From positions 1-28,760 of the IMG/VR virus record IMGVR_UViG_3300028388_002517: 28,760 nt of DNA. One strand, given 5' to 3'. The position numbers and the translations under genes were made by a program. The notes under the pieces are model-generated. The model worked only from the letters and a program-made list of their open reading frames with translations. It did no database searches and was not told the DNA's origin. Positions 4,269 to 28,760 of the stretch are shown in pieces. How positions within the stretch are numbered: the first letter of the stretch is position 1; each line of letters opens with the position of its first letter. The DNA is from a virus.

Positions 4269-5088
4269 ACTTGCACAAGCAACACAAACATTTATGACCG
4301 CAGAAACCGCTGCATTTGAACTGGCGCAGCGCAAAGCAAAAGCCCTTATGTCGGCAACGGTTCTGCCAAAAGAATATACGGGCAACCTTGGCAATACATT
4401 GATTGCCCTTGAGTTGGCAGAACGAACAAACTCGGCCCCGCTGCAAGTCATGCAAAATCTATATATCGTCCACGGCAAGCCTTCTTGGTCGTCGAAGTTT
4501 TTGATTGGCACGTTTAACCAATGTGGTCGATTTTCGGCTATCCGGTATGAATGGAAAGGCGAGCCAGGTGCTGAAGACTACGGTTGCCGGGCGGTTTGTA
4601 CTGAATTGGCAACAGGGGAAAAAATCCAGGGTATCTGGATAACGTGGAAATTAGTTAAAGCGGAAAAATGGGACGCAAAACCCGGTTCCAAATGGTTGAC
4701 GATGCCCGAAAAAATGTTCCAGTACCGCGCCGCCGCTTGGTTGATTGACGTTACTGCGCCGGAAATTGGTTTAGGTTTGCCAACCGCTGAAGACGCAACC
4801 GATATTATTGATGTCGATCCTTCAACAGGTGCAATCCTGTCAAACGATATTGAATCAGCTTTAACGGGTAACACTGTCGATCCTGTCGACGAACACGAAC
4901 AAGAAACGCAAAAACATGAAGACACTGATCCGCCAATCGCAATTGTTTTGGAGTCAATTAAGGATTCACAAAACTTGTCAGATTTGGCTGAAATTGATGA
5001 ATTAATCAAACATTGGGACAAGCGGACAACCGCGTTTAAACAAGTTCATCAGGCTATCGAAAATAAGCGCAACGCAATAAGCGGTTGA
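4258..5088 (+). CDS. recT: RecT-family single-strand annealing protein
   Basis: A 276-residue RecT-type recombinase, which coats single-stranded DNA made by the exonuclease and anneals it to its complement. Typical blocks are SAPLQVMQNLYIVHGKPSWS, FNQCGRFSAIRYEW, the GEKIQGIWITW strand, GSKWLTMPEKMFQYRAAAWL and APEIGLGLPT with trailing acid residues. The last 75 residues are acidic and variable, as is usual for the species-specific C terminus that contacts host single-strand-binding protein. The ATG at 4258 is preferred over the one at 4246 because GGAG lies 7 nt before it. Overlap with the exonuclease gene implies coupled translation. Confidence 0.9.
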   Translation: MSSELAQATQTFMTAETAAFELAQRKAKALMSATVLPKEYTGNLGNTLIALELAERTNSAPLQVMQNLYIVHGKPSWSSKFLIGTFNQCGRFSAIRYEWKGEPGAEDYGCRAVCTELATGEKIQGIWITWKLVKAEKWDAKPGSKWLTMPEKMFQYRAAAWLIDVTAPEIGLGLPTAEDATDIIDVDPSTGAILSNDIESALTGNTVDPVDEHEQETQKHEDTDPPIAIVLESIKDSQNLSDLAEIDELIKHWDKRTTAFKQVHQAIENKRNAISG

Positions 5089-5095
5089 AGATCGC

Positions 5096-5314
5096 ATGTG
5101 TGACCACCGGAAAAGCGCTGTCTATGATTCCCGCCCACGCTACGACGATCAGGGAAACCACTATGTGGCTCGCAGACGTCGATGCATGGACTGTGGCGCA
5201 ACATTCAGCACTGTTGAGATACCACTAGACAGGCTTAAAGCATTAGAGCAACGCGAGGCCGCTGTTCAGGCTGTTATAGCGTTGTCAAATAATCTGATTA
5301 GTGGGGTTAAATAA
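5096..5314 (+). CDS. NrdR-like zinc-ribbon protein
   Basis: A 72-residue protein whose first 45 residues resemble the zinc ribbon of NrdR: an N-terminal MCDH pair, VYDSRP, a basic ARRRRC run, CMDCGATFST and a VEIPLDR segment. NrdR proteins repress ribonucleotide reductase genes, but the ATP-cone domain is absent here, so this is only the DNA-binding type module. Stand-alone versions are frequent in phage early regions and their function is unknown. It ends by overlapping the next start (TAATG). Confidence 0.72.
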   Translation: MCDHRKSAVYDSRPRYDDQGNHYVARRRRCMDCGATFSTVEIPLDRLKALEQREAAVQAVIALSNNLISGVK

Positions 5315-5547
5315 TGGCCTTGTATGCCAACGTCATCGATGGCTCAGAAGTTTATGCTACGTCAAAAGACGATAAATGCGTATGGGTATTGCTCAGCAAT
5401 ACCATCGGCGTAATGACGCGCCAGCAATATGCACATGAACAAATCAAACTGCAGCCATATTTTGGGAAACAGGAAATCTACAACCCGTTGGACGAATTAA
5501 CGAAGCAGGCCCAGGAATTGGATATGGGGTATGGAGTTGCCAAGTGA
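5314..5547 (+). CDS. Hypothetical early protein
   Basis: A 77-residue protein beginning at an ATG that overlaps the previous stop codon. The N-terminal half is beta-rich in character (ALYANVIDGSEVYATS, then CVWVLLSNTIGVMTRQQY) and the C-terminal part is polar. No domain is recognised. The tight overlaps on both sides (TAATG upstream, GTGA downstream) make it a convincing operon member. Confidence 0.65.
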   Translation: MALYANVIDGSEVYATSKDDKCVWVLLSNTIGVMTRQQYAHEQIKLQPYFGKQEIYNPLDELTKQAQELDMGYGVAK

Positions 5548-5825
5548 ATGACTTTAAACCACACCAGCTTGGAAAAGTGATCGGCACATGGCGCGTAGTC
5601 GAGTACCTAGGTCGCCAGGAAGATCCAGCAGGTAAGGAGAGGCATAAGTATCTGTGCGAGTGCGTCAACTGCGGGACAAGGAAGGAAAAGCGACATGACA
5701 CTCTCAAGAGGCACACAAAATATTGCGCGGCATGTCGTCCAGCTCATAGTTATGGCCCTGGGCGTGGCAAGCTGGTGAACAACGTGATCGAGAGCAGCGA
5801 TTTTTTGAGGATGAAATTGCGATGA
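5544..5825 (+). CDS. Zinc-ribbon protein, phage type
   Basis: A 93-residue protein with two Cys clusters: CECVNCG at about 39-45 and CAAC near residue 69. The N-terminal part (GKVIGTWRVVEYLGR) matches the G-x-x-x-G-x-W-x-V motif seen in phage zinc-ribbon proteins and at the N terminus of some homing-type endonucleases; no nuclease domain follows. The start is GTG at 5544 with GGAG about 8 nt upstream, overlapping the previous stop. It is the last clearly phage-like gene before the cassette array, and its stop overlaps the ATG at 5822. Confidence 0.68.
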   Translation: MNDFKPHQLGKVIGTWRVVEYLGRQEDPAGKERHKYLCECVNCGTRKEKRHDTLKRHTKYCAACRPAHSYGPGRGKLVNNVIESSDFLRMKLR

Positions 5826-5881
5826 ATATTCAAGACATTAAAACTATGTTGTTAGGCGAATTCACGGAGACAGAACGATGA
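5822..5881 (+). pseudogene. 19-codon ORF at the array junction, possible truncated phage gene
   Basis: An ORF of 19 codons whose ATG overlaps the stop of the zinc-ribbon gene (ATGA), the usual sign of a coupled phage gene. It runs through the GTTAGGC core site at 5851-5857 and stops at 5879-5881, overlapping the ATG of the first cassette ORF. One reading is that codons up to 5851 are the remaining 5' end of a phage gene that was split by cassette insertion. Another is that it is a short leader coupling translation into the array. Too short to identify. Confidence 0.35.
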
Positions 5882-6090
5882 AAGACGTTATCGAACAGTT
5901 CAAGAAGCATGCACGATCCGCAAGCTACCACTTTGCCGACGATACGGGCGATGAATGGCATCTCGGGAATAAGGAGCAAGCAATTGCGCTGCAAATATTC
6001 GATGACAATCCAGAATTGCATACCGAATTGCGCGAGGCCGCAAAGGGTGAGCTGTGGAGTTTGAGCAGAGAACGGCCAGTTTCTGGCTAA
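5878..6090 (+). CDS. Cassette 1 hypothetical protein
   Basis: A 70-residue acidic protein of unknown function, containing HFADDTGDEWHLGNKEQA and a helical ELHTELREAA segment. No signal peptide or membrane segment. The start ATG at 5878 has GGAG about 8 nt upstream and overlaps the 19-codon ORF before it. The TAA stop codon lies within the 5' end of attC A, as is typical of integron cassettes. It is the first cassette gene after the 5851 core site and is co-directional with the early operon, so it is probably transcribed from the phage early promoter. Confidence 0.65.
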   Translation: MKDVIEQFKKHARSASYHFADDTGDEWHLGNKEQAIALQIFDDNPELHTELREAAKGELWSLSRERPVSG

Positions 6091-6164
6091 CGCCAATGCT
6101 TAGGGGCGACGCCTGAGGCGGCGTCCCAGCGACCAACGGGAGCGCCTAGAGCTACTTGTTAGGT
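6085..6164 (+). other. attC: attC A
   Basis: Begins GGCTAAC at the cassette 1 stop and ends GTTAGGT (6158-6164). The flanks pair as TAAC/GTTA, then GCTTAGG-GCG against CGC-CTAGAGC, with short unpaired bases. The centre carries GACGCC / GGCGTC as a variable terminal stem. Length is about 80 bp. The core AGGTGA also serves as ribosome binding site for the next ORF at 6170. Confidence 0.75.
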
Positions 6165-6169
6165 GATTT

Positions 6170-6457
6170 ATGACAACAATTGTTGAGAAATGCCCAACCT
6201 GCGGAGCAGATGCGATAAACCGACATGACTACTGGGAAGCCAGCCCAGAGAACGGGCAGGAGTATGAGTTAAGAGTGCTGCAAATTGCGAAGGCGCTAAA
6301 CAAATACTATTTGAACCTGGATCAGGGCAGGTCTCAACAGATTGCTGCCAATGAGGCATTTAGACAGATTCAAGTCATCATGGGGATGAAGTATGAGAAA
6401 GGGAAAATGCAGCAATTTTTAGACGACTTTCCAAAGTTAAAGCCTTTATACGCCTAA
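6170..6457 (+). CDS. Cassette 2 hypothetical protein with CxxC motif
   Basis: A 95-residue protein. The N terminus has one CPTCGAD knuckle (residues about 8-14), a half zinc-ribbon; the rest is helical (YELRVLQIAKALNKYYLNL, then RQIQVIMGMKYEKGKMQQF). One CxxC pair alone could bind zinc only as a dimer or with His ligands (one His follows at about 19). The ribosome binding site (AGGTGA) is supplied by the core of attC A, and the stop codon overlaps the GCCTAAC of attC B. No family recognised. Confidence 0.65.
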   Translation: MTTIVEKCPTCGADAINRHDYWEASPENGQEYELRVLQIAKALNKYYLNLDQGRSQQIAANEAFRQIQVIMGMKYEKGKMQQFLDDFPKLKPLYA

Positions 6458-6547
6458 CGACAAAGCTATGCGGCGCTGAGCCGCAGGCGAAGCGTCCGAA
6501 CGAACGACGAAGGAGTGAGTTGAGTGAACTTGACCAACTTGTTAGCT
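6452..6547 (+). other. attC: attC B
   Basis: Starts GCCTAAC, a perfect RYYYAAC box, at the stop of cassette 2, and ends CTTGTTAGCT (core 6541-6547). The 3' part TTGACCAACTTGTTAG is nearly identical to that of attC C. GCGGC...GCCGC forms a central stem. It contains GGAG (6512) and the GTG (6524) that starts the next ORF. Confidence 0.68.
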
Positions 6548-6859
6548 GGCCTTGGCGGCATAGCCGCACTCGTGGGGTTGCTGGTGATGATATACGCGGC
6601 TGGCAACGTGATTGAGTGGTTACGTTTCTGGAGCCAGACGCGGCGGGATAGGCGCGATGGGCGCAGACAATGGGCTGTCTCTGGCTGGAACACCTGCCCG
6701 GAAGACATCGAAGATGGGCAACAGGTGATCGTCCAGTTAGACGGGTGGGGAGTTGAAACAGCTATTCGTCGTGGAACCAGATTAATCAGCAAGAGCGGCG
6801 GCTATAGTGCCCCACTTGATAACTGCCTGGGATGGGTTGAATTTCCTAAGGCCAGATAA
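6524..6859 (+). CDS. Cassette 3 membrane protein with DUF551-like tail
   Basis: A 111-residue protein starting with GTG inside attC B (GGAG 8 nt upstream). Residues about 7-30 form one transmembrane helix (GLGGIAALVGLLVMIYAAG), followed by a basic stretch (RRDRRDGRR). The C-terminal 65 residues, with WNTCPEDIEDGQQVIVQ and ending in LGWVEFPKAR, resemble the DUF551 pattern (a W-x-x-C-P-E-D-G-type start and a W-x-x-x-P end), a family common in phages and of unknown function. The stop codon lies at the start of attC C. Confidence 0.68.
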   Translation: MNLTNLLAGLGGIAALVGLLVMIYAAGNVIEWLRFWSQTRRDRRDGRRQWAVSGWNTCPEDIEDGQQVIVQLDGWGVETAIRRGTRLISKSGGYSAPLDNCLGWVEFPKAR

Positions 6860-6922
6860 CGCCAAGGTAAGCGGCGGCGATAGCCGTCCGAGCCGTAGGC
6901 GAACTTGACCCACTTGTTATGT
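6854..6922 (+). other. attC: attC C
   Basis: Starts AGATAAC at the stop of cassette 3 and ends CTTGTTATGT (core 6916-6922). The 5' GGT-AAG pairs with 3' CTTGACC leaving one unpaired base, the extrahelical base typical of attC. About 69 bp, with GGC...GCC stems in the centre. Confidence 0.75.
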
Positions 6923-6972
6923 GTGCAGAGGTTCGCGTTACTCGTGGCCCGACAGATTAGTATGAAAGCACT

Positions 6973-7137
6973 ATGAGTCCAATTCCACTTATTACTGTCG
7001 CAGTCGTTACGGTTATTCAGATCGTGCATTTCTATAGGAAGCACTTCCCTGATGACATACCAAAAAAATCAATGCTGTTAGCAACAGGATTCAACTTGTT
7101 CTTGTACGGGACGTTGTTGCAGTTTTTCTCTGCATAA
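6973..7137 (+). CDS. Cassette 4 small two-helix membrane protein
   Basis: A 54-codon ORF. The protein has two hydrophobic segments, LITVAVVTVIQIVHFY (about 6-21) and MLLATGFNLFLYGTLLQFF (about 34-52), separated by a short polar, basic loop (RKHFPDDIPKK), so it could span the membrane twice as a hairpin. Its TAA stop overlaps the GCATAAC box at 7132, the typical cassette arrangement. There is no strong ribosome binding site. The 50 bp between the attC C core and this ATG hold nothing else recognisable. Function unknown. Confidence 0.58.
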   Translation: MSPIPLITVAVVTVIQIVHFYRKHFPDDIPKKSMLLATGFNLFLYGTLLQFFSA

Positions 7138-7165
7138 CGACCAAGACGAACTCTATGGTGAAGAA
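7132..7165 (+). other. Degenerate attC D (5' half only)
   Basis: GCATAACGACCAAG overlaps the stop of cassette 4 and matches the 5' end of the other sites (compare ATAACGACAAGG in attC F), but no GTTA-ending 3' arm occurs before the next ORF begins at 7166. Probably a partly deleted attC. Confidence 0.45.
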
Positions 7166-7321
7166 ATGAACGAAGAACGAGATTATGTATCAGTCCTAGC
7201 GGACGCGCTTAGTGCGCTGCGAAATATCCCAGATGATGAATGCAGCGAGGATGTAAGTGAGACACTTGTTGCCGTGGAAGAGGATGTGAGCGACGTGCTG
7301 AAATGGCTGCGCGGCTCATAA
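7166..7321 (+). CDS. Cassette 5 small acidic protein
   Basis: A 51-codon ORF encoding a strongly acidic, helical protein (SVLADALSALRNIPDDEC, then ETLVAVEEDVSDVLKWLRG). No domain is recognised. The TAA stop overlaps TCATAAC, the 5' box of the next degenerate site. Because the attC sites on both its sides are incomplete, this ORF is probably locked into a larger composite cassette (6917-7786). The small acidic, helical character is like that of some inhibitor or DNA-mimic proteins, but nothing specific supports such a role. Confidence 0.52.
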   Translation: MNEERDYVSVLADALSALRNIPDDECSEDVSETLVAVEEDVSDVLKWLRGS

Positions 7322-7339
7322 CGCCAGCGTAACTGGCGT
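7316..7339 (+). other. Degenerate attC E (short hairpin)
   Basis: TCATAACGCCAG at the stop of cassette 5, then a 7-bp inverted repeat ACGCCAG / CTGGCGT with a 5-nt loop, ending directly at the next ATG (7340). It keeps the 5' box of an attC but has no GTTRRRY end. The hairpin next to the start codon could also affect translation of the following gene. Confidence 0.45.
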
Positions 7340-7684
7340 ATGAACAGACAGCAGAAAAGAACACAGGACGCAGGGACTAGAACAACGACTACTACCGAAA
7401 AAGTTATTTTGGGAACTATGGCGGCTCTGCTTGTGCTTATGATTATTGACGTGATGTACACGGCGAACGCCATTAATGAGGCAGGCAAAATGAAGGCTGT
7501 GGTAATCGAAGCAGGCAAAGAAGTTATCGACGAAGACTACATCGAAAATATTTGCGAGGACTTGCGTTGCGCACTGATTAACGTACTCGACAACCCTGGA
7601 GAACAGGACGAATACGACAGGGCGGTTGATGAAATGCGGCACATAGGCGCGACCCTGGATGCAATGATGCCGGATGGTGATTAG
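7340..7684 (+). CDS. Cassette 6 single-pass membrane protein
   Basis: A 114-residue protein with a basic, Thr-rich N terminus (TRTTTTTEK), one transmembrane helix at about residues 24-43 (GTMAALLVLMIIDVMYTA), and a polar acidic C-terminal domain (about 70 aa) with two Cys residues (ENICEDLRCALINVLDN). The orientation could be N-in, placing the acidic domain in the periplasm. No strong ribosome binding site; the ATG directly follows the hairpin of site E. The stop codon lies 2 nt before the box of attC F. Function unknown. Confidence 0.62.
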   Translation: MNRQQKRTQDAGTRTTTTTEKVILGTMAALLVLMIIDVMYTANAINEAGKMKAVVIEAGKEVIDEDYIENICEDLRCALINVLDNPGEQDEYDRAVDEMRHIGATLDAMMPDGD

Positions 7685-7686
7685 GC

Positions 7687-7792
7687 ACATAACGACAAGG
7701 GTAACGCGCCGTAGAAAGCGGCGCACAGGAGATTGATATGAACGACAAAACCGACCCGCTTTCTACGGTCGCTGTTGACCCGCTTGTTAGCG
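7687..7792 (+). other. attC: attC F, with SD and start codon in its loop
   Basis: Begins ACATAAC and ends CTTGTTAGCG (core 7786-7792). A perfect 13-bp inverted repeat (7709-7721 with 7756-7768) forms the upper stem; below it GGGT-AAC-GCG pairs with CGCTGTTGACCC leaving unpaired bases in the same register as attC C. The loop between the arms contains AGGAG (7727-7731) and the ATG (7738) of the next ORF. About 106 bp. Confidence 0.83.
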
Positions 7793-8076
7793 CCTTTTCG
7801 GAGAACGACTGCTTGGCGTGCGGGCCTTTTGATGGCGACTTTGGTTCGCCAGATGACCGGATTCTGAAAGACAAAATGGCGACGGCCCGAAAAAGCGGAG
7901 AGTGTTTCTTGTGTGGGCAGGAAATTCTACCGGGTGAGAGGATCAGGACTATGGCGGCTGTTTTCGATGGCGAATTCATGTCATATCGCTGGTGCAATGC
8001 CTGCTGCGCTGCGATGGCAAAAAGTTGGCTTGACGACGGCGAGGCCTATGAAGAGCGTGCTGCATTAGCGCGCTAA
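7738..8076 (+). CDS. Cassette 7 zinc-binding protein
   Basis: A 112-residue protein. Residues about 46-95 hold a treble-clef or zinc-ribbon-like module: ATARKSGECFLCGQEILPGERI, a FDGEF strand, then RWCNACCAAMAKSW, giving C-x2-C...C-x2-C ligands. Similar modules occur in small phage proteins. The first 18 residues are encoded by attC F itself (start ATG 7738 with AGGAG 6 nt upstream), so this gene is an in-frame fusion of attC-derived codons to cassette codons. An internal ATG at 7876 would give only the zinc module. The TAA stop overlaps the CGCTAAC of attC G. Confidence 0.66.
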   Translation: MNDKTDPLSTVAVDPLVSAFSENDCLACGPFDGDFGSPDDRILKDKMATARKSGECFLCGQEILPGERIRTMAAVFDGEFMSYRWCNACCAAMAKSWLDDGEAYEERAALAR

Positions 8077-8173
8077 CGCAATTCTCAGTGGCGACCGTAC
8101 CGCGCCACAGAACCTGAACGATCACCACAAACACGCGACGCGGTACGGCGTCCACTGGAGCTAATTGTTATGT
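8071..8173 (+). other. attC: attC G
   Basis: Starts CGCTAAC at the stop of cassette 7 and ends ATTGTTATGT (core 8167-8173). 19-nt arms (8086-8104 and 8139-8157) pair at 16 positions with a 3-nt internal mismatch; outside them AATTCT faces AGCTAATT. About 103 bp. The next ORF starts at the ATG inside the terminal GTTATGT. Confidence 0.85.
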
Positions 8174-8412
8174 GTATTTATTATGGCGATTGCCCGTTTA
8201 ATATGCCTGACTGCGAAGAAGATGATGGCCACTACAAATGCCCTCATAGAGTAGTTGGAGATATGGTTAGAATTAGGTATTGGCAACAAGACACGATGGA
8301 AAGCGGTCGGTGGTGCTTGACTGGTTTAATGACAGTTGATTCGGCAAAGAAAATGAACGCTAGTGGCATATTGGATCGGTCTGAAATTGTTGCCGATAGC
8401 GATTACACATAA
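8170..8412 (+). CDS. Cassette 8 Cys-rich hypothetical protein
   Basis: An 80-residue protein with an N-terminal Cys/His cluster (MCIYYGDCPFNMPDC, then HYKCPHR), giving four Cys and one or two His within 28 residues, compatible with a zinc site. The middle reads as beta strands (VRIRYWQQD, then GRWCLTGLMTVDS). The start ATG is part of the GTTATGT core of attC G, an arrangement seen in integron cassettes. The stop TAA is followed by a C, keeping a TAAC box, but no intact attC follows. It is the last ORF of the plus-strand region. Confidence 0.62.
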   Translation: MCIYYGDCPFNMPDCEEDDGHYKCPHRVVGDMVRIRYWQQDTMESGRWCLTGLMTVDSAKKMNASGILDRSEIVADSDYT

Positions 8413-8532
8413 CTAGGGATTAACGGACACATTTGTCGCATAATCCCGTAAACTGAAACCGGGTTGCTGATTTCAAGCGTTGATCAGTAACCCTGCAAAG
8501 CGTTGGTGATGCTCGCTTGGTTTTTTATGTCG
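8413..8532. terminator. Convergent intergenic region with hairpins
   Basis: Three structures lie between the end of the cassette array and the end of the late operon. (a) 8417-8452: GGGATTA...TAATCCC around an inner GACA/TGTC. (b) 8461-8471 with 8483-8493: GGGTTGCTGAT / ATCAGTAACCC, 10 of 11 pairs, usable in both directions. (c) 8498-8526: AAGCG...CGCTT followed by GG and six T, a weak rho-independent terminator for rightward transcripts. No ORF. Confidence 0.55.
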
Positions 8533-10197
8533 TCAGAAATACTGCGGAACATCGTTTCCAACGCCAAACTCGTTTACGGTGCTTTCCTCTGTTACCGGCT
8601 GATAAGACACATACCAAAGCCAGCCTGGTGGTGTTCCTCCGTCCGCATACGCCTCAGTTCGTGATTGCAACGTATTGACGTTGCCGTCGCCTACGCCAAT
8701 AACGGTAGATTCTTCCTGACGGTTTACAAAATCAGGCTTGATGAAATCAGCCACAACGTTAAACGTACCGCTTGACAACATAAAAATTCGCACAGAAGGG
8801 TCGATTTCAGAAAGCAAAGTTCCGTTTGCGTATGACAGTGTGTTGCACGTCACGGATTCAGACGTTGACGAATCAGAAGTGCCGCTAGTTGGACAGCCGC
8901 AGAACGTTGCTACAGATGTGTTTGGTGGGCACATCGGCCCACGCGTGGTGCTGTCTGATGTTTCTTGAATCAGCGCCGAAATGCCAATCACGGTGCCAAA
9001 ACAATCATAATTTTCCTCTAGTCTGTCGATCGCAACAATATTTTCTGCATATTCGATTGTGTTGCTTGACGTACCGCAGCTTTCAAATTCCCAGGCAAGC
9101 CCACCGCCTGGCTGTGAAACTGCTTTCCAAAATGAAGACTGCGAGAAAGATCCAGAATAATTTTGAGAATAATTTGTTGATGTTTCGCGGTGGTAATCGC
9201 GCACGATGTTGCCTTCGTGTCGACGGTAAATAATCGCGCTTGTGTCTGTTTCGGTCACATTCCGCTGAAATGTTGTCGAACCCGATGAAAGCGTGTATTG
9301 CCTCGTAGTCACCATTTCTTCGATGGTGTTTTCTGGAAACTCATTAGCGTCGCCAATTGCAATTGATGGATCTGAATCAACCCAGGGAGACGACCACACC
9401 GGAAACGGATCACTTTCACCGACGACAACAGTGCGAGACAAAACTAAATCTTCGTATTCGTCTGAAACGCTAATCGTCGCGGAAAGCCCTGCACCTGTAT
9501 CAATGTCGCCAGTGCCTGAAACGGCCACATTGATAACGCCGACCAATGCGTACCTTTGCGAATAGTCCAAATGTGCCTGGCCTTCAACATAAACCTCGTC
9601 AATGATGGTTCCGTTTGTGGTGTAGGCGTTGATAATCACGTCTGATCCGTCAGGGTTTGGAACAACGGCCAGCTCTTCATCACATGTGAGGTTATTTGCC
9701 ATCATGTAGGGTTCAACCGTTCCGCTAACATACCAGCTTGGGAAGGTTGGCACCCAATCCAACGTAGCCAGCACAAACGGATCTGGACCGCTGCGGCCAA
9801 AGCGGCCAAAAAGCGATTGGCAAACCACCTCTAAGCGTGTTTTTTGGTTGGTAATGTCTGGCGTATTGTCGATGATGGACTGCTGGATTTTCATCAGCCA
9901 GGTAGATCCTGCAGGGTCGCAATACAACCACGATCCAGTGCCTATCTCTGGACCGCCGTTTAAAGCTCGGTTATAACCACAAAGCAAAGCATAATCGCGC
10001 CATTCAAAACCAAGCGTGCTGTCTCTTGTCTGCTGTCGAATGTTTCTGCGGTTTCCCAACGCCGATGGATGTCTAACAACAGTGCATGGTCCTGTTCCGT
10101 TCACGCTCACCGTTTTTAGGCCTACTGTGGCCTCACCGTTCAGCGCCAAACCGTGATATGGCATGCCAATATCTTGAGGCGGGATAAGCCGGTTCAT
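8533..10197 (-). CDS. Late-operon structural protein, probable tail tip or fibre
   Basis: A 554-residue protein, last gene of the late operon. The N-terminal part (residues 1-170) contains QDIGMPYHGLALNG, LGFEWRDYALLCGYN and a GSWLYCDPAG-WLMKIQQ block; the rest is rich in Ser, Thr, Gly and beta-strand patterns, with several Cys in MCPPNTS-ATFCGCPTS (about 430-455). This composition suits a secreted or virion-surface protein. Position after the tail hub gene suggests a tail tip or receptor-binding role; this is inference. The start ATG overlaps the preceding stop (ATGA). Confidence 0.62.
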   Translation of the reverse strand: MNRLIPPQDIGMPYHGLALNGEATVGLKTVSVNGTGPCTVVRHPSALGNRRNIRQQTRDSTLGFEWRDYALLCGYNRALNGGPEIGTGSWLYCDPAGSTWLMKIQQSIIDNTPDITNQKTRLEVVCQSLFGRFGRSGPDPFVLATLDWVPTFPSWYVSGTVEPYMMANNLTCDEELAVVPNPDGSDVIINAYTTNGTIIDEVYVEGQAHLDYSQRYALVGVINVAVSGTGDIDTGAGLSATISVSDEYEDLVLSRTVVVGESDPFPVWSSPWVDSDPSIAIGDANEFPENTIEEMVTTRQYTLSSGSTTFQRNVTETDTSAIIYRRHEGNIVRDYHRETSTNYSQNYSGSFSQSSFWKAVSQPGGGLAWEFESCGTSSNTIEYAENIVAIDRLEENYDCFGTVIGISALIQETSDSTTRGPMCPPNTSVATFCGCPTSGTSDSSTSESVTCNTLSYANGTLLSEIDPSVRIFMLSSGTFNVVADFIKPDFVNRQEESTVIGVGDGNVNTLQSRTEAYADGGTPPGWLWYVSYQPVTEESTVNEFGVGNDVPQYF

Positions 10198-28728: not shown

Positions 28729-28760
28729 ACAATCCCCTTATGCGCGTCATAAACTAGACG

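Follow-up and report, generated by a model that had tools for sequence, protein, structure and literature searches.

Integrase-less integron cassette arrays (CALINs) have been known in phages since 2023, when Qi et al. described them in 17 phages and recorded IntI1 activity, as attC x attI1 recombination, at five sites (PMC9892861). The array described here is of this known kind, and its first-pass annotation, which had presented a phage as a new carrier of cassettes, was anticipated in that respect. Like the CALINs of Tetrasphaera phage TJE1, Pseudoalteromonas phage PH101, and Polaribacter phage P12002L, it is an attC cluster with small co-directional cassettes and no integron integrase, but it belongs to another lineage with other cargo, has near-identical relatives that differ by cassettes, and places gene starts and stops inside attC (PMC9892861). 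With the sedentary chromosomal integrons of Gammaproteobacteria it shares one gene per cassette and attC of the type TAACGMCAA...TTGACC-NN-CTTGTTA, whereas it lacks intI, a recognizable attI, and Pc, is short, lies in a phage early region, and has gene ends that overlap the sites far more often. In fused cassettes of class 1 integrons, such as blaGES-1/aacA4, the left end is all that stays behind of a lost attC, and the genes become joined like an operon (PMC4670013); the phage array holds comparable remnants at 7138 and 7321, although with several fusions in a single array and no resistance genes found. A small ORF spanning the left boundary, putatively coupled in translation to the first gene, recalls ORF-11 of attI1 (PMC8876359), but it shows no homology to it by anything tested, and the short ORFs known from class 1 attC sites (PMC8876359) differ from the full-length cassette genes that start inside attC in the phage. 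What appears to be new is that turnover is caught between near-identical phages and that compaction is extreme, with stops in R'' and starts in attC.

We conclude that positions 5851-8413 are very probably a CALIN in a nearly complete phage genome, with cassettes that a host integrase would have supplied. The window analyzed is the whole of IMG/VR virus record IMGVR_UViG_3300028388_002517 (28,760 bp). Because a sister contig (L014), whose large terminase is 97% identical to that of the window phage, connects window base 28760 with window base 1 through 44 intervening bases, the record represents a nearly complete genome that is circular or circularly permuted. Rightward early genes, including an exonuclease VIII-like recE and recT, and leftward late genes (terminase, portal, fused protease/capsid, and tape measure) flank eight short rightward ORFs. 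There is no Phage_integrase match, and no tyrosine recombinase, anywhere in the 28,760 bp, in agreement with the initial reading that no integron integrase was visible, and the record has no intI and no recognizable attI or Pc, as a complete integron would. Promoter-like sites above chance were not found in 5000-8800. Between recT and the array, a small protein is encoded at 5096-5314 in which Pfam recognizes an NrdR-like zinc ribbon (E 9.6e-9). Phages related through recT (L001-L012) have little else in common around the array, and a search with the 842-amino-acid late protein found no relative. Named phages contain no counterpart of the array DNA, for which the sole match was a weak one of 62 bp on Citrobacter plasmids; an Rfam search gave no match.

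Two covariance models were used to locate attC. R1 was built from 12 bacterial attC, at loci retrieved by a DNA pattern derived from two of the window sites, and located 100 attC around integron-integrase genes in proteobacterial genomes; R2 was built from those 100 chromosomal intI-adjacent attC alone. No window site entered R2, which was bootstrapped from R1, itself seeded through the pattern of two window sites. The features of the array are as follows (fold z, folding score).

5822-5881, + strand: 19-codon ORF MNIQDIKTMLLGEFTETER across the left boundary, with ATGA overlaps with the preceding gene and with ORF2 (sequence)
5851-5857, + strand: core of the left boundary, GTTAGGC, where cassette 1 begins (sequence)
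5852-6158, + strand: cassette 1, with ORF2 (5878-6090, 70 aa)
6084-6164, feature on + strand, recombinogenic strand minus: attC1 (R2 30.4 bits, E 1.2e-5; R1 22.0 bits)
6159-6541, + strand: cassette 2, with ORF3 (6170-6457, 95 aa)
6451-6547, + strand: attC2 (R2 20.8 bits, E 0.003); ORF4 has its ribosome-binding site and GTG start (6524) in the loop
6524-6859, + strand: ORF4 (111 aa, hydrophobic N-terminus), first codons from attC2 and remainder from cassette 3 (6542-6916)
6853-6922, + strand: attC3 (R2 33.8 bits, E 1.7e-6; R1 30.3 bits)
6917-7786, + strand: fused cassette 4, with ORF5 (6973-7137), ORF6 (7166-7321), and ORF7 (7340-7684)
7686-7792, + strand: attC6 (R2 30.2 bits; R1 38.4 bits; fold z -3.8); ORF8 has its ribosome-binding site and ATG start (7738) in the loop
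7738-8076, + strand: ORF8 (112 aa, Cys-rich), body in cassette 7787-8167
8070-8173, + strand: attC7 (R2 15.1 bits, E 0.079; fold z -3.7)
8168-8413, + strand: cassette 9, with ORF9 (8170-8412, 80 aa)
8407-8495, no strand assigned: element E at the array end (89 bp, two hairpins, intergenic)

The eight co-directional + strand ORFs (5878-8412) thus make up six cassettes, with three of the genes fused in a single cassette. Much of the architecture first described for the locus is present: the TAA stop lies inside the TAAC box in seven ORFs (ORF7 ends in TAG, with the TAAC box right after it), and a right end of the form TTGACC-NN-CTTGTTA is seen at 6530, 6905, and 7775. The proposal that attC separate the ORFs holds for five complete sites but not for every pair, since ORF5 and ORF6 are followed by R''-only remnants (7135-7138 and 7319-7322), neither of which is matched by the attC model. 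Neither edge of the array is a classical attI or attC junction. The GTTAGGC core at 5851 lies inside the 19-codon ORF, with no recognizable attI or attC around it and no attC model match above background, and the right end falls short of a complete attC, the R'' of ORF9 running into the 89-bp element E.

The integron-type nature of the array, and the covariance-model check that had been suggested for it, were borne out by R2. With filters off, R2 gives five matches in the whole window (33.8 to 15.1 bits), all on one strand within 6084-8173, well above background; the next-best score in the window, at another place, is 9.1 bits (E 2.6). Four of the five have E < 0.01, and attC7 is marginal on its own; the sites all point the same way, with a single small ORF between neighbors except at the three-ORF fusion. 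When 541 kb of other viral DNA was searched up to E 10, matches fell in three contigs only, of which L042 and L043 had been picked by the attC pattern and L032 by its tail gene, not by attC. R2 also recovers two sites in phage TJE1, with scores of 21.0 and 17.2 bits, within the region to which Qi et al. assigned attC; IntI1 recombined two of the attC assigned there (PMC9892861). An intI above the curated cut-off is present in seven of nine bacterial genomes holding the exact attC pattern, most of them Gammaproteobacteria, versus none of 14 control genomes. A narrower attC pattern matched once by chance, within a coding gene of L013, an unrelated phage.

As to a bottom-strand hairpin with an unpaired spacer and an extrahelical base, the arms of the model fit the window sites, and free folding is significant only in attC6 and attC7; unconstrained single-strand folding of attC1 to attC3 gives z values of -0.6 to -1.4. 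A home-made folding finder was dropped for its bad performance, which is explained by the R' box of a site coming from the next cassette. As for the two unrelated phage contigs with attC, L042 and L043 (IMG/VR 3300043395_003969 and 3300045970_000595), their attC loops hold ribosome-binding sites and start codons, and L042 has three sites, in both orientations.

When a cassette is a circle, its R'' box and its first bases derive from one site. Across ten cassettes (six from the window and four from the relative phage described below), 59 of the 80 positions that follow GTT agree with the reverse-complemented R'' of the same cassette, with 35 expected by permutation, a sum reached by none of 200,000 permutations; the match is weakest in cassettes 1 and 4, while in cassette 9 the start, TTATGTGTA, matches the end, TACACATAAC. 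This agreement of own start with own end is a trace of the circular cassette, which terminator-like repeats would not give.

The array is also unusually compact. The TAA stop of the upstream gene lies in R'' in 11 of 16 phage attC versus 5 of 107 chromosomal ones (Fisher p 1e-8), and 6 of 16 versus 3 of 107 have a ribosome-binding site with a start positioned at or ahead of the R' core (Fisher p 1e-4), counts drawn from small samples of sites that are not independent within arrays, with a simple rule for the ribosome-binding site. Starts inside attC are found for ORF4, ORF8, and ORF9 of the window, the last made by attC7, which contributes a GGAG left of the core and, within its R' box (GTTATGT), the ATG, and for genes in L104, L042, and L043. 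Deletions plausibly draw genes together until R''-only remnants are left, as at 7138 and 7321. Because fused cassettes and translation signals in attI and attC are known from class 1 integrons (PMC4670013, PMC8876359), the compaction is a shift in degree and not in principle.

Evidence of cassette gain and loss, which the first-pass annotation had proposed to seek in related phages, comes from L032 and its close variants. L032 matches the window in the tail gene beside the right flank of the array (74%) and in the next gene (92%); the early region that comes after its tail gene is a different one and encodes a CI-type repressor. Its own array occupies the opposite end of the contig (L104) and has five attC and genes other than those of the window, with one cassette family in common, that of ORF7 (52% identity). 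Contigs L111 and L112, from two other metagenomes, are 99.97 to 100% identical to L032/L104 outside cassette-level differences, and L112 places the array just upstream of the terminase gene. L104 lacks 64 bp of attC0 plus the start of the next gene, a segment present in L111 and L112; this loss, with no clear repeat at its ends, is one observed attC deletion comparable to those that would have left the remnants at 7138 and 7321. After the ORF7-type cassette, L104 has a full attC, an extra cassette (D), and another attC; L111 and L112 lack cassette D and its attC and pass from the R'' of the ORF7-type cassette through TAGGGATTAACGG to the terminase gene. The junctions between the variants fall in attC sites. 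Turnover is thus seen in L111/L112 versus L032/L104; none was observed in the window phage, and L014, its near relative, stops short of the array. The comparison of variants favors cassette turnover. Both outcomes that the first-pass annotation had set as counting against a cassette array, an attC model without matches above background and related phages without gain or loss of cassettes, are contradicted. At the contig end, L104 positions 2096-2191 repeat 960-1055 (an attC and the start of the following cassette) exactly over 96 bp, which is either a tandemly duplicated cassette block or a mixed population of variants.

The cassette products, ORF2 among them, are mostly without assignable function, and no resistance gene turned up among them. 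ORF7 is homologous from codon position 7490 onward to an L104 cassette gene (1508-1708; E 6e-22 pairwise and 2.5e-17 by tblastn). Its first part (7340-7489) is a hydrophobic 50-residue N-terminal extension fused in frame and missing from the relative's copy. ORF8 matches PHROG 19515 (E 2.3e-18), with Pfam DUF7576 just under the cut-off; it and one L104 gene match phage protein families. ORF3 has a homologue on a Photobacterium damselae megaplasmid, not visibly within an array, and no match in 398 proteobacterial genomes. None of the window cassettes was found in a bacterial integron.

These observations are best accommodated by a sequence of events in which the cassettes would have arisen in a bacterium, most likely gammaproteobacterial, whose integron was active, and in which the integron integrase of the host most likely recombined them into phage DNA inside the cell. 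The array would be transcribed together with the recE/recT early operon, and expression from the early promoter is plausible given their shared direction. A phage without an integrase of its own would then retain the array as an accessory operon, the sites shrinking by deletion until attC extend into the ends and starts of genes and only an R'' box is left of some, and would edit it mainly by deletion (one clear case) and possibly through further host-integrase events. The hairpins might instead merely look like attC and belong to the usual intergenic terminators or repeats found in a phage early operon, as the short genes, single direction of transcription, and sites that fold no better than shuffles would allow; yet the specific matches to a model of intI-linked sites, the same pattern in intI-bearing bacteria, the agreement of each cassette's start with its own end, and the variant junctions within attC make this highly improbable.

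A more substantial alternative, and a real possibility even though we lean against it, is that the array is genuine but fossil, having been captured once as a block from a chromosomal integron by illegitimate or homologous recombination and later altered only by RecET-type recombination or slippage, with no integrase action in the phage. Such a history agrees with the missing integrase, the R''-only remnants, the 64-bp deletion, the exact 96-bp repeat, and the meeting of the last cassette with element E at TAAC, a microhomology; it fits poorly with two related phages whose arrays differ in both cassettes and genomic location, closure being intact in each, and with cargo that includes genes of phage protein families and none found in chromosomal integrons. 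It is also conceivable, if somewhat unlikely, that cassettes are exchanged continually among phages in hosts with active integrons and that attC are selected as portable translation-start modules, to which the start and stop counts above and the same design in the unrelated L042 and L043 would point. Against this stand the limits already given for those counts, the prospect that the pattern is plain genome compaction, and the attI1 translation signals and short attC ORFs known in class 1 integrons (PMC8876359). Still more doubtful is the fullest form of the idea, in which the phage lineage would use host integron integrases for cassette exchange, attC would have evolved into portable translation-initiation modules giving a ribosome-binding site, start codon, and first residues to any downstream gene, and a conserved 89-bp hairpin element, common to an unrelated phage, would mark the right end of the array. 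Under the favored reading, a CALIN stocked by host integrases, phages would carry integron cassettes without a plasmid or transposon, and integrons would in turn supply phages with small accessory genes. Gene starts within recombination sites would tie cassette shuffling to protein N-termini and translation, and natural phages that are near-identical and differ by cassettes make exchange directly testable.

At the right edge, the R'' of ORF9 passes straight into element E at TAAC/TAGGG. Element E was absent from the named phages and plasmids searched, but a 68.5-kb phage contig that is otherwise without detectable similarity has a copy of 97% identity over 90 bp (L127, 4586-4675), and the L111/L112 array closes with the first 35 bp of the element. 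Element E is possibly a transcription-related hairpin or an integration target, and TTTGTCGCATAA within it is reminiscent of a XerC arm of dif. Top-strand (R'') integrase exchange at the TAAC/TAGGG junctions was considered and set aside, as short-repeat deletion accounts for them equally well. L032 has a diverged copy of element E near 2346-2377. Beside it, positions 2240-2380 resemble the 3' half of a tRNA-Lys gene, whose 3' end, searched in 398 genomes for a host, gave no match; in a phage with a CI-type repressor, this sequence is likely an attachment site.
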